A program made the position numbers and the translations under genes. 64,000 nt of DNA, from the NCBI RefSeq assembly GCF_002900965.1, contig NZ_PJOM01000003.1, forward strand, positions 186,001 to 250,000, given 5' to 3'. Within the stretch, counting starts at the first letter, position 1; every line of letters starts with the position of its first letter. This stretch comes from Pseudotabrizicola formosa (GTDB taxonomy: Bacteria > Pseudomonadota > Alphaproteobacteria > Rhodobacterales > Rhodobacteraceae). This document shows, piece after piece, positions 3,015 to 53,805 of this stretch. The notes under the pieces were generated by a model. The model did no database searches. It was not told where the DNA came from and saw only the letters and a list, made by a program, of their open reading frames with translations.

Positions 3015-4226
3015 ATGACCCGCATAGCATCTGTATCTTCACGACTTCTGGCCTCTGCCGCGCTGACCGTTCTGTCGGCAGCCGGTGCTTTGGCTGAAGA
3101 CGCTGAAACGCATTATCGCCTGTTCATCGGCGACCACGCTGAAGGTGTGGTTCGCGCGATTGACGCCGAAAGCGGCGAAGCCCTGGCGGCTTTTGACATC
3201 GACATGACCCCGGCCTTGACCGCCAGCGCCAGCGGGCGCTTCGTCTTTGCGGTGCAGGGCGATGCCGCCAAGGTGGCAGTGATCGATACCGGCATCGCGC
3301 TGGAGGATCACGGCGACCATGCCGATATCACGCTTGCAGATCCGGCGCTGCTGGAGATCACCCTGACCGGGACAAAGCCCGCGCATGTGGTCGAAGGGTC
3401 TGGCCGGATCGCGCTGTTTGATGATGGCACCGGCGACGTGACGGTGTTTTCAGAATTGGGGCTGCTGCAGGGTCGCCATGCCCCTGAAACGCTGTCGCCG
3501 GGTGCGGCGCATCACGGGTTGGCCGCGCCGATGGGCGATTACATGGTGGTGTCGGTTCCGCATGACGACCCCGAGCAACCGCGTGTCGGGTTGAAGGTGA
3601 TTGACAAGGCTGGCGCGCAGATCGGCGAGGTCATGCCCTGCCCCGCTGTGCATGGGCAGGCGCAATCGGCGCGGGTTTTTGCCTTTGGCTGCAAGGATGG
3701 CGTGGTCTTTGCATCGCCGGGGCAGGCGGGTGCCGCACCGGACCTGATTCATGTGCCGACCGCTGAACTGGGGGAGGGCAATGTCTCGACCCTCAAGGGC
3801 GGCACGGCGCTGCAGGTCTTTCTTGGCAATTATGGACCTGATGCCGTGGTTCTGATCGAGCCGGGCAGTGACGCCCCGTTCCGCAAGATTGACCTGCCGA
3901 CGCGGCGGGTGGATTTTGCGCTGGACCCGGTGATTGCGCGCAACGTCTATATCTTGACCGAAGACGGACAGCTGCACCTGCTGGACATCCTTTCCGGCGA
4001 GATCAAGCAGAGTGTGACAGTGACCGACCCCTATTCGATGGATGGCCACTGGCGCGACCCGCGCCCGCGTCTGGCGGTGGCGGGCGACCATATCGCGATC
4101 ACTGATCCGTTGCAGGGGATGGTGCGCATGATCTCGACCGAGACTCTGACCGAGGTGCGGCAGATCCCGGTGGAGGGCGTTCCCTATACCATAATTGCTG
4201 TCGGTGGATCTGGCGCGACGCATTGA
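3015..4226 (+). CDS. aztD: Periplasmic zinc metallochaperone AztD
   Basis: A 403-residue secreted protein resembling AztD, the beta-propeller zinc chaperone that passes zinc to the solute-binding protein AztC. A signal peptide covers about residues 1-27 (LLASAALTVL, then GALA before the cleavage site). A His/Asp stretch LEDHGDHAD at about 96-103 and the conserved TGTKPAHVVEG segment match the family. The ATG at 3015 is chosen because GGAGG sits 5 bases upstream and the signal peptide begins there; the frame is open further upstream but without a ribosome site. AztD normally follows aztABC, but here it stands alone between rpoC and unrelated genes. A Zur-like operator lies just upstream. Confidence 0.85.
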   Translation: MTRIASVSSRLLASAALTVLSAAGALAEDAETHYRLFIGDHAEGVVRAIDAESGEALAAFDIDMTPALTASASGRFVFAVQGDAAKVAVIDTGIALEDHGDHADITLADPALLEITLTGTKPAHVVEGSGRIALFDDGTGDVTVFSELGLLQGRHAPETLSPGAAHHGLAAPMGDYMVVSVPHDDPEQPRVGLKVIDKAGAQIGEVMPCPAVHGQAQSARVFAFGCKDGVVFASPGQAGAAPDLIHVPTAELGEGNVSTLKGGTALQVFLGNYGPDAVVLIEPGSDAPFRKIDLPTRRVDFALDPVIARNVYILTEDGQLHLLDILSGEIKQSVTVTDPYSMDGHWRDPRPRLAVAGDHIAITDPLQGMVRMISTETLTEVRQIPVEGVPYTIIAVGGSGATH

Positions 4227-9293: not shown

Positions 9294-9296
9294 CGG

Positions 9297-9353
9297 TGCG
9301 GCGGGGTTAACCCCGCCCTACCAATCCCGTAGGGCGGGGCGATCCCCGCCGCA
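9297..9353. repeat. Inverted REP pair (BIME) between fusA and tuf
   Basis: Two REP units in opposite orientation: TGCGGCGGGG-TTAA-CCCCGCC ending in CTAC, a 6-base spacer, then GTAG followed by the mirrored hairpin with a CGAT loop. The whole element can fold into one long hairpin. It sits inside the str operon, 4 bases after the fusA stop and 28 before tuf, where it may stabilise mRNA ends or uncouple tuf expression. Confidence 0.9.
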
Positions 9354-21347: not shown

Positions 21348-21372
21348 TGCGGCGGGGTGAACCCCGCCCTAC
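21348..21372. repeat. Single REP unit after rpmD
   Basis: GGCGGGG-TGAA-CCCCGCC followed by CTAC, which is GTAG plus hairpin on the minus strand. It begins 2 bases after the rpmD stop and 11 bases before an intrinsic terminator. Confidence 0.88.
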
Positions 21373-21480: not shown

Positions 21481-21630
21481 ATGCGCCCTTTGTTTGCAGC
21501 CCTTGTTCTTCTTGGTGTTGCCACTTTCGGTCTGCAAGCGCAGGCCCATGGTGGAGGGTGCCGGAAAAGCTCGCCGCCCGGTCAGTGCTGCCACATGGAT
21601 AACGCGCAAGGCCGGGTGCATTGCCACTGA
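21481..21630 (+). CDS. Small secreted His/Cys-rich protein (YHYH-like)
   Basis: A 49-residue protein starting MRPLFAALVLLGVATFG, a signal peptide ending near QAQA. The mature part is only about 28 residues, with the pattern HGGGC-x7-GQCCHMDNAQGRVHCH. This resembles the short GCHxDxxTGxxHCH segments of YHYH/excalibur-like secreted proteins. Four cysteines and four histidines suggest disulphides or metal binding. The function is unknown. An earlier in-frame ATG at 21421 would place a non-signal-like stretch in front and is not favoured. It lies 61 bases before ectC. Confidence 0.6.
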   Translation: MRPLFAALVLLGVATFGLQAQAHGGGCRKSSPPGQCCHMDNAQGRVHCH

Positions 21631-21691
21631 TGTCTTGACGCAAGGCCATCTGTCACAGCACCATCAGGCGTTCACCGCGCCAGAGGTTTTC

Positions 21692-22078
21692 ATGATTGTC
21701 CGTTCCCTCGCCTCCATCCTGAACACCGCAGCCCATGTGACGGGCGACAGCTTTGAAAGCCGCCGGATTTTGCTGGCTGCTGACGGGCTTGGCTATTCCC
21801 TGCATGACACGATCTGCAAGGAAGGCACCGAGCAGGTGTTGCAGTACAAGAACCACATCGAAACGAATTACGTCATCGAAGGTGAAGGCGAGGTGGAGAA
21901 TGTGGCGACCGGCGAGGTGTTTGCGCTGACCCCCGGCACGGTCTATGTGCTGGACCGGCACGAGGCGCACATCCTGCGCGCGCAACGCGGCGACATGCGG
22001 ATCATCTGCGTGTTCACGCCCGCCCTGACCGGACAAGAGGCGCATGACGCCGACGGGAGTTATCCGGCGGCGGGGTAG
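21692..22078 (+). CDS. ectC: Orphan ectoine synthase EctC
   Basis: A 128-residue cupin resembling EctC, which cyclises N-gamma-acetyl-diaminobutyrate to the compatible solute ectoine. MIVRSLASILNTAAHV opens as in EctC. SRRILLAADGLGYSLHDT, YKNHIETNYVIEGEGEVEN, GTVYVLDRHEAHILRA and VFTPALTGQEAHDADGSYP follow the family in order, including the metal-site region. Length matches (about 130). No ectA, ectB or ask gene is adjacent, so it cannot make ectoine from aspartate semialdehyde by itself. Solitary ectC genes are known in other bacteria. It is inserted between rpmD and rplO. Confidence 0.9.
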   Translation: MIVRSLASILNTAAHVTGDSFESRRILLAADGLGYSLHDTICKEGTEQVLQYKNHIETNYVIEGEGEVENVATGEVFALTPGTVYVLDRHEAHILRAQRGDMRIICVFTPALTGQEAHDADGSYPAAG

Positions 22079-26973: not shown

Positions 26974-26978
26974 TAGCG

Positions 26979-27003
26979 GAGGGCGGGGTTAACCCCGCCC
27001 TAC
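26979..27003. repeat. Single REP unit between rpoA and rplQ
   Basis: GGCGGGG-TTAA-CCCCGCC flanked by GGAG on the left and CTAC (GTAG on the minus strand) on the right, so both known REP tetranucleotide variants border one hairpin. It starts 6 bases after the rpoA stop. Confidence 0.88.
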
Positions 27004-53019: not shown

Positions 53020-53580
53020 ATGCCGCAGTATCAGCGCCCCAGAGTGACCGGTGCGCGGGTGTTTTTCACCCTGTGCCTTGCTGTGCGTGGCAGTGACCTG
53101 CTGCTGCGCGAAGTGGGCAGGTTGCGCCAGGCAGTGGCGCAGACCCGGGCGGAACGACCCTTCGGGATCGAGGCCTGGGTGGTGCTGCCGGACCATCTGC
53201 ATTGCGTGTGGCAGCTGCCTGTGGGGGACGGGGATTTTGGGGTGAGGTGGGGGGCGATCAAGGCGCGTTTCTCGATGGGGATGCGTAGGGCGGGGTTCAC
53301 CCCGCCGCCCCCGGTGGGTCGCAGGAATGGCGGGGTGAACCCCGCCCTACGGCGCAAGGGAGAGGTTGGGCTCTGGCAACCGAGGTTTTGGGAACACCAT
53401 ATCCGCGATGAGGCGGATTACGCTGCCCATGTCCGGTATTGTTGGGGCGATCCGGTAAAGCATGGTTTGGTTGCGCGGCCCGTCGACTGGCCGCACTCGT
53501 CGATCCACAGGGATATCCGGGTGGGGTTGGTGGCGCCGGATTGGGGCGGATCGTGCGAGGTGGGGGAGTTCGGGGAGTAG
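53020..53580 (+). CDS. REP-associated tyrosine transposase (RAYT) with in-frame REP insert
   Basis: A 186-residue single-domain transposase of the Y1/HUH class (IS200-like, TnpA-REP). It opens MPQYQRPRVTGARVFFTLCL. The metal-binding HUH motif is LPDHLH (His59, His61). The C-terminal helix with the candidate nucleophile is RDEADYAAHVRYCW (Tyr134 or Tyr140), followed by DPVKHGLVARPVDWPHSSIHRDIR, all family-typical. Residues 89-111 (RRAGFTPPPPVGRRNGGVNP and on) are encoded by an inverted REP pair of exactly 22 codons. Without it the protein would read FSMGMRRKGEVGLWQ, as relatives do. The stop codon lies in the GTAG of the next REP unit. The ribosome site is weak. Confidence 0.93.
   Translation: MPQYQRPRVTGARVFFTLCLAVRGSDLLLREVGRLRQAVAQTRAERPFGIEAWVVLPDHLHCVWQLPVGDGDFGVRWGAIKARFSMGMRRAGFTPPPPVGRRNGGVNPALRRKGEVGLWQPRFWEHHIRDEADYAAHVRYCWGDPVKHGLVARPVDWPHSSIHRDIRVGLVAPDWGGSCEVGEFGE
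53285..53350. repeat. Inverted REP pair inside the RAYT coding sequence
   Basis: GTAG plus GGCGGGG-TTCA-CCCCGCC, a 21-base centre, then the mirror image ending CTAC; 66 bp in all, a multiple of three. The reading frame passes through without a stop. The same 66-bp length recurs at 53740-53805. Confidence 0.95.
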
Positions 53581-53653
53581 GGCGGGGTTCACCCCGCCGA
53601 TGGAGGTGCGTGTGGCGGTTGGTGCCGGAGTGGCGGGGTGAACCCCGCCCTAC
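53577..53653. repeat. Inverted REP pair at the RAYT stop codon
   Basis: 77 bp. The left GTAG provides the TAG stop of the RAYT gene at 53578-53580. The two mirrored hairpin units flank a 33-base centre. Confidence 0.93.
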
Positions 53654-53743
53654 GGAAAAGCCTTGAAGCGCGGATTGGTACAGCAGCCCGTCGATTCGGC
53701 GCATTCGACGCGCCACCGGAATATCCGGTTGAGTTTGGTGTAG
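53654..53743 (+). pseudogene. Remnant of a second RAYT gene (3' end)
   Basis: Read from 53666 this encodes KRGLVQQPVDSAHSTRHRN and on to IRLSLV-stop, aligning with KHGLVARPVDWPHSSIHRD and IRVGLV of the intact transposase at 53474-53548. No start, HUH motif or tyrosine remains. Its TAG also lies in the GTAG of the following REP pair. Divergence is substantial, so it is an old duplicate or a relic of a related copy. Confidence 0.82.
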
Positions 53744-53805
53744 GGCGGGGTTCACCCCGCCACCACCGGGTGGTCGAAAGAAAGGCGGGGTGAACCCCGC
53801 CCTAC
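53740..53805. repeat. Inverted REP pair between RAYT remnant and ettA
   Basis: 66 bp, the same length and arm sequence as the pair inside the RAYT gene but with a different centre. It ends 4 bases before the ettA stop codon on the opposite strand. Confidence 0.93.

Follow-up and report, generated by a model that had tools for sequence, protein, structure and literature searches.

An in-frame REP pair, matched to the genome's REP class and with one arm nearly frozen at silent sites, inside a RAYT gene of Pseudotabrizicola formosa

The gene for a REP-associated tyrosine transposase (RAYT, or TnpAREP), located in a 64,000-nucleotide stretch of the Pseudotabrizicola formosa genome (contig NZ_PJOM01000003.1, positions 186,001 to 250,000; hereafter the window), carries an inverted pair of repetitive extragenic palindromes (REPs) within its own coding sequence. 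The pair is in frame, common to many genera and matched in class to the REPs of the surrounding genome, and the silent sites of its second arm are nearly frozen. Our explanation, to which we assign a probability of about 0.5, is that an old REP pair is now inherited as part of the loop joining helix αC to strand β4, is still a REP of the resident family, and is kept as a recognition site. The finding bears on how RAYTs and REPs stay matched and on why bacteria keep them.

The 66 bp at 53285-53350 consist of two 22-nt REPs (GTAGGGCGGGGTTCACCCCGCC) in inverted orientation, 22 nt apart, with arms that are 100% complementary (Table 1). The open reading frame (ORF) remains open through the pair, which affects residues 89-111, confirming the preliminary description of a complete, in-frame 66-bp REP pair without a stop codon. 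Folding of a 74-nt stretch gave z scores of -6.9 and -7.3 for the two strands as DNA and -6.4 as RNA. Within the window, the 22-mer is matched 15 times at ≤3 mismatches, compared with none in 100 shuffles; across the genome it occurs at 47 places at ≤2 mismatches, 36 of them exact and many arranged as inverted pairs. It thus combines GTAG, a palindrome, repetition across the genome and inverted pairing, the features of GTAG-tagged REPs and of REP doublets forming hairpins (REPINs). The elements are classed here by these sequence features, and their mobility is putative.

The encoded protein scores 150 bits against the NCBIfam model NF047646 (REP-associated tyrosine transposase; cut-off 80), a model matched in 6 of 14 control genomes and exceeding its cut-off in one of them. 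Within the 3.7 Mb genome, 53020-53580 is the sole NF047646 match at E ≤ 0.001. A sequence search of the PDB at E ≤ 1 returned E. coli TnpAREP (4er8) as the only match (E 5e-42), and Foldseek, queried with the predicted structure, ranked the same entry first (E 3e-19; template modelling (TM) score of 0.91 by target length), identifying the TnpAREP fold. H59, H61 and Tyr140 are invariant across a 27-row alignment (A1), and we take Tyr140 to be the catalytic tyrosine. The alignment to 4er8 reaches residue 154, and the protein terminates in FGE, the C-terminal GE extension of E. coli-type RAYTs, which contacts GTAG in TnpAREP according to the parts of PMC8266576 drawn on here.

The insert lies where 4er8 has four residues and the RAYT protein has 29. 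In the AlphaFold2 model (mean predicted local distance difference test (pLDDT) score, 82.7), it is positioned after helix αC (residues 73-90) and ahead of strand β4 (residues 124-127), with low confidence in the loop (mean pLDDT of 67 at residues 91-100 and 54 at residues 101-110). The end of αC overlaps the first codons of the in-gene REP; in E. coli, K82 on the equivalent helix contacts the REP (PMC8266576, same parts). These data support the earlier proposal of a cognate REP inside its own RAYT gene, in a loop between the HUH motif and the tyrosine. From sequence, fold and C-terminal tail, we infer that the RAYT is of E. coli type and belongs to subclass 2.2. The in-gene and genome REPs have perfect 7-8 bp stems, unlike the long, bulged stems of most subclass 2.2 REPs (PMC6006769); as bulged stems are a majority trait only, the perfect stems lower the support for subclass 2.2 membership but do not exclude it. 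Cutting of REPs as single-stranded DNA (ssDNA), an E. coli-type trait, is a predicted activity of this protein.

A search of named genomes yielded 42 related RAYT loci, among which those of close relatives (Pseudotabrizicola, Rhodobacter, Tateyamaria, Fluviibacterium, Planktomarina and Pseudooceanicola) share the in-frame pair at an identical position, arm 1 having decayed in a few. A profile search of 394 Rhodobacteraceae genomes found a match in at least 141 and a match over the cut-off in at least 115. The RAYT set, assembled from named and fetched loci with the weakest profile matches left out, comprises 194 ORFs found by the profile, from which 174 full-length ORFs were kept and 20 partial ones dropped, leaving 165 distinct sequences after duplicate removal; nine rows come from outside Rhodobacteraceae (e.g., Rhodanobacter, Pseudomonas and Yokenella). 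The linker, defined as the residues between KARFS and WQ and termed long at 23 or more, measures mostly 19-20 residues without a REP and 23-69 with one. A GTAG-tagged hairpin (stem ≥7) is present in 64 of the 76 distinct long linkers and in none of the 89 short ones (70/82 and 0/92 with duplicates retained). Random synonymous recoding of the linker peptides produced on average 0.31 hairpin-bearing linkers among 82, and never more than 2 (100 runs), and tagged hairpins lie outside the linker in 8 of the 174 ORFs. Joining the flanks of the insert, which had been thought to restore the family norm, leaves 10 residues, far from the 19-20 residues of most short-linker relatives.

On a FastTree core tree (165 rows, 142 columns, many weak supports), REP class clusters, requiring 48 changes compared with a shuffled mean of 72.6 and a minimum of 66 (200 shuffles). 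Hairpin-bearing genes are interspersed with short-linker ones on the same tree, with 26 Fitch changes, and no single clean ancestral gain was recovered; the number of changes and the weak supports make gain, loss, transfer and recombination indistinguishable. Among other Alphaproteobacteria, 57 of 337 genomes matched, and inspection by eye of the linkers of 27 new loci, whose DNA was unscanned, revealed no REP-like peptide; most of these loci resemble other transposase groups. Three RAYT genes (L071, L073 and L063) are broken at or near the in-gene REP (approximately bases 3255-3350), two of them missing most of the pair; this may be a hot spot for deletions.

At least seven classes of in-gene REP can be distinguished, A to D being common and E, F and G rarer. 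Classes A-D were each counted in 79 genomes, a backward-pattern control giving 0 in all, and class matching was scored in the 45 genomes with one assigned class after subtraction of RAYT-locus copies. The class found in the gene is the unique top of the four tested classes elsewhere in 37 of the 45 genomes, compared with a mean of 11.4 and a maximum of 22 for shuffled labels (10,000 shuffles). Copies of any of the four classes occur elsewhere in 41 of the 45, and own-class copies account for 793 of the 969 copies elsewhere. Five of the eight misses have no own-class copy elsewhere (G185, G144, G074, G344 and G031); the others have more D than their own C (G065), more C than B (G369) or a tie (G286).

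Classes E, F and G were searched in 27 genomes as a prediction. The predicted class is present in nine of nine genomes, each of which also has copies outside the RAYT locus: class F in G389 (12) and G255 (7), class E in G121 (38) and G077 (18), and class G in G328 (8), G031 (13), G099 (53), G186 (10) and G208 (8), counts that include RAYT-locus copies and score a two-footed element on both strands. Unpredicted matches comprise class F in G328 (32), class E in G283 (5) and G391 (3), and class G in G011 (1). The RAYT gene names its REP, in that the in-gene repeat predicted the REP class of the genome. Comparison of in-gene REP decay with genome REP loss gave mixed results among genes without an intact tagged hairpin, with 0 (G185 and G144), 64 (G020) and 20 (G181) own-class copies elsewhere. 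Two linkers (L109 and L115) contain "double foot" in-gene REPs, with GTAG at one end and CTAC at the other; GCAG replaces GTAG in L115.

Silent-site divergence separates the two arms from their surroundings. Across 16 window-type genes, selected by peptide, four-fold divergence is 0.064 in arm 2 and 0.219 in arm 1 (a figure that includes the last proline codon, whose third base falls outside the REP), compared with 0.636 for the spacer and with 0.567 and 0.519 for the N- and C-terminal parts of the gene, respectively. The arginine codon directly after arm 2 is back at 0.517, and arm 2 lies below all 14 invariant-residue control columns (p = 0.0003). Peptide-only selection gave arm 2 values of 0.058 (n = 23), 0.000 (n = 11), 0.058 (n = 12) and 0.050 (n = 8) for classes A, B, C and D, with silent divergence of 0.50-0.60 in the flanks. 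The loop codon of classes B and D varies in the residue that it encodes (L, Y or C in class D), while the silent stem sites stay almost constant. Frozen arm 2 silent sites next to a diverged spacer indicate that the hairpin is preserved as DNA and that the insert is no recent arrival. On these sequence grounds, the insert is old as protein and yet still a predicted cognate REP. Frozen silent stem sites beside free neighbouring codons provide a testable sign that the DNA of a repeat matters inside a protein gene.

These values also bear on how the pair arrived. According to the preliminary description, the transposase appeared to have been hit by its own substrate and to have tolerated it. A recent one-off insertion of this kind, tolerated by chance, agrees with a perfect 66-bp pair in frame; however, the same insert occurs in several genera and the spacer silent sites have diverged like the rest of the gene, so this origin is very improbable, and a recent private insertion was rejected on both counts. 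Orthologues sharing the segment with diverged DNA had been named in advance as the mark of an ancestral protein part. This holds for the segment, which is present with diverged spacer DNA as an inherited part of the protein, and fails for the REP arms, chiefly arm 2, which are undiverged and still a REP.

A role of the peptide itself must be weighed against the same silent sites. The encoded module may be needed in its own right, for example to hold the REP, with DNA similarity following from it: the insert comes straight after the helix whose E. coli equivalent touches the REP, the motif G-x-[NK]-P-x-L is shared by classes A to D, and the arm 2 residues are invariant in the 16 window-type genes. 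We consider this improbable, as it leaves the frozen silent sites unexplained, the class D loop residue varies where silent stem sites hardly do, and the model is uncertain within the insert. Class C spacers (L049, L050, L131, L137, L141, L173 and L214) keep an LPVVxSGRYAG-like peptide with varied codons, and part of the insert therefore looks protein-constrained.

Among the 64 distinct hairpin-bearing genes, 33 carry GTAG in both orientations, 25 on the template strand only and 6 on the coding strand only, and most tags are read in a single frame (52 of 58 on the template strand and 38 of 39 on the coding strand); these genes are related sequences, so the strand and frame counts are non-independent. 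TnpAREPs are reported to bind the REP strand but not the complementary one (PMC8266576, parts drawn on here), and the better-kept arm places the recognised strand on template DNA, not on mRNA. For a group 3 RAYT from Marinomonas, the bases selected at positions 1, 2 and 4 of the loop are T, T and A (PMC8266576, same parts); the class A loop is T-T-N-A. An mRNA hairpin that slows translation, alters decay or binds the RAYT would be very stable (-60.5 kcal/mol, z -6.4). Regulation of this kind is nevertheless unlikely: it is arm 1, the less conserved of the two, that appears in the mRNA in its GUAG form, and the strand preference of TnpAREPs also speaks against it. Binding of the mRNA by the RAYT, raised in the preliminary description, is not supported; the template-strand position of GTAG in the best-kept arm is a weak counter-argument.

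In the explanation that we prefer, the REP pair would first have entered by RAYT action, into a loop that may have accepted it by being flexible or permissive. At just short of even odds, the REP would then be kept because the ssDNA of the gene, mainly its template strand, is a recognition site of the RAYT, the gene carrying its own putative substrate. Such a site could restrain the RAYT where its own gene lies; alternatively, the in-gene REP might travel with its enzyme upon gene transfer. The encoded peptide, next to the REP-binding helix, may matter too. DNA-level selection as a RAYT recognition site is favoured, though unproven, over upkeep by the REP population.

Such upkeep defines the strongest rival, a passenger REP without a role whose arms are reset by conversion or re-insertion from genome REPs; we regard it as rather doubtful, but as a serious contender. 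It accounts for the tracking of the genome's REPs by the in-gene class and for the interspersion of hairpin-bearing and short-linker genes, and several observations that weigh against a kept recognition site fall on its side. The RAYTs of L046 (class B) and L050 (class C) differ in class despite 91% core identity, a class switch in place at the same spot. In G082, a TTTA loop is found in the in-gene REP as well as in 32 of the 39 genome copies listed, as conversion would give. Further points against our explanation are that G018 has 191 class D REPs while its only RAYT among the matches listed (L102) is short-linker, that 6 of the 64 hairpin-bearing genes have the coding-strand form alone, and that 39 of the 89 RAYTs without an in-gene REP have a REP within 500 bp downstream; as RAYTs of this type also adjoin REPs, the in-gene copy is optional. 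The arm 2 peptide is likewise invariant in the 16 genes, and the arm asymmetry could come from protein constraint near β4.

The passenger account is opposed by the spacer and the codons beside the arms, which are not homogenised, so that conversion tracts would need to be ~22 nt. It also leaves arm 1 more variable than arm 2, and the dominance of one reading frame is unexpected under random re-insertion. In G116, the genome has no exact TTTA-loop copy besides the in-gene REP, and the persistence of this private variant indicates that the in-gene REP is not simply overwritten.

REPs in frame inside tnpAREP genes are a known kind of element. In their parts covering such REPs, Quentin et al. 2018 (PMC6006769) call them unique to subclass 2.4, which is abundant in Cyanobacteria and Bacteroidetes and scattered elsewhere, and mention neither genome class matching nor frozen silent sites. 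Subclass 2.4 has a variable domain between β3 and αC, modelled away from the DNA site, and is without the C-terminal core extension, and subclass 2.2 (E. coli) has just short insertions between αC and β4 (PMC6006769, same parts). The RAYT described here shares with subclass 2.4 a REP in frame between the HUH motif and the tyrosine, perfect REP stems, and REP shapes (a stem foot of three G-C pairs; a "double foot") that recur in class A and class F. It differs in being an E. coli-type RAYT with its insert between αC and β4, next to the REP-binding helix, instead of between β3 and αC, and its C-terminal core extension speaks against subclass 2.4, setting it apart by the description of that subclass. 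With E. coli TnpAREP and its REPtron (4er8; RAYT group 2, subclass 2.2), it shares the fold, the HUH motif, the tyrosine, the C-terminal GE tail and flanking REPs; E. coli REPs have bulged stems (PMC6006769 and PMC8266576, in the parts drawn on here), whereas the stems here are perfect.

Rickettsia palindromic elements (RPEs), which occur in many unrelated genes, resemble the present case in being palindromic DNA in frame in proteins, whereas the window has five further REP sites, four of which abut gene ends. Examples of RPEs from R. conorii appear in the parts of Di Nocera et al. 2013 (PMC3733652) used here, along with GTAG and CGTC REPs inside other genes and REP-supplied stop codons. The likeness to the RAYT gene extends to GTAG palindromes in frame inside genes and to a REP GTAG yielding TAG stops; the difference is that many of those intragenic REPs lie in DNA synthesis or repair genes, mostly at differing sites. 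RAYT genes are not named as in-frame REP carriers in these parts of PMC3733652, where a figure legend has REPs overlapping RAYT ends. In the literature, which was covered in part, we found no in-frame REP at the αC-β4 loop, class matching or frozen silent sites. The in-frame REP in a RAYT is thus of a known kind, and the αC-β4 case in an E. coli-type RAYT, beside the REP-reading helix, appears to carry over to that type a trait described as unique to a single RAYT subclass.

A broader proposal, which we advance tentatively and with the odds somewhat against it, is that the in-gene REP would be a working cis-acting part, a template-strand site matched to the enzyme. Enzyme and repeat would be transferred together and switch class together, the enzyme would act on its own gene, and the arrangement would have arisen at least twice, in E. 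coli-type RAYTs and in subclass 2.4, in two different loops.

Table 1. Coordinates of the RAYT gene, its in-gene REP pair and adjacent elements in the window
Feature	Positions	Strand	Basis
RAYT (TnpAREP) gene, E. coli-type, 186 aa	53020..53580	+	NF047646 score, 4er8 matches
HUH motif H59-L60-H61	53194..53202	+	H59, H61 invariant in alignment A1
Helix αC (residues 73-90), counterpart of the helix that contacts the REP in E. coli	53236..53289	+	AlphaFold2 model
REP arm 1, GTAG on coding strand, encodes (R)RAGFTPP	53285..53306	+	
Spacer between arms	53307..53328	+	Four-fold divergence 0.636
REP arm 2, GTAG on template strand, encodes GGVNPAL(R); almost no silent-site change	53329..53350	-	
Codon of Tyr140, aligned to residue 115 of 4er8	53437..53439	+	
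REP pair at the 3' end of the RAYT gene; GTAG supplies stop TAG (53578-53580)	53577..53653	+	
Decayed second RAYT tail, ending in REP-supplied TAG (53741-53743)	53654..53743	+	75% DNA repeat D2, translation
REP pair further downstream, sharing 89% identity with the in-gene pair	53740..53805	+	Repeat D3

Within the window, the RAYT insert is the clear case of an in-gene REP. The fifth of the other sites lies at 21351-21372, a count that refers to the window only. The sites at gene ends follow genes that we take, from their translations, to be fusA-like, rpoA-like and dacB-like, with one further site beside 21494-22078. Short REP palindromes, readable on both strands, stand directly after the fusA-like and rpoA-like genes (9296-9321 and 26978-27003). 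As at this RAYT gene, a REP supplies the stop codon of 35 of the 63 hairpin-bearing RAYTs and of 26 of the 89 with short linkers (61 of 152 together). Downstream, the remnant of a second RAYT tail at 53654-53743 encodes GKALKRGLVQQPVDSAHSTRHRNIRLSLV, followed by its REP-supplied stop, and sits between two REP pairs, which suggests an old second RAYT copy that was lost by deletion.
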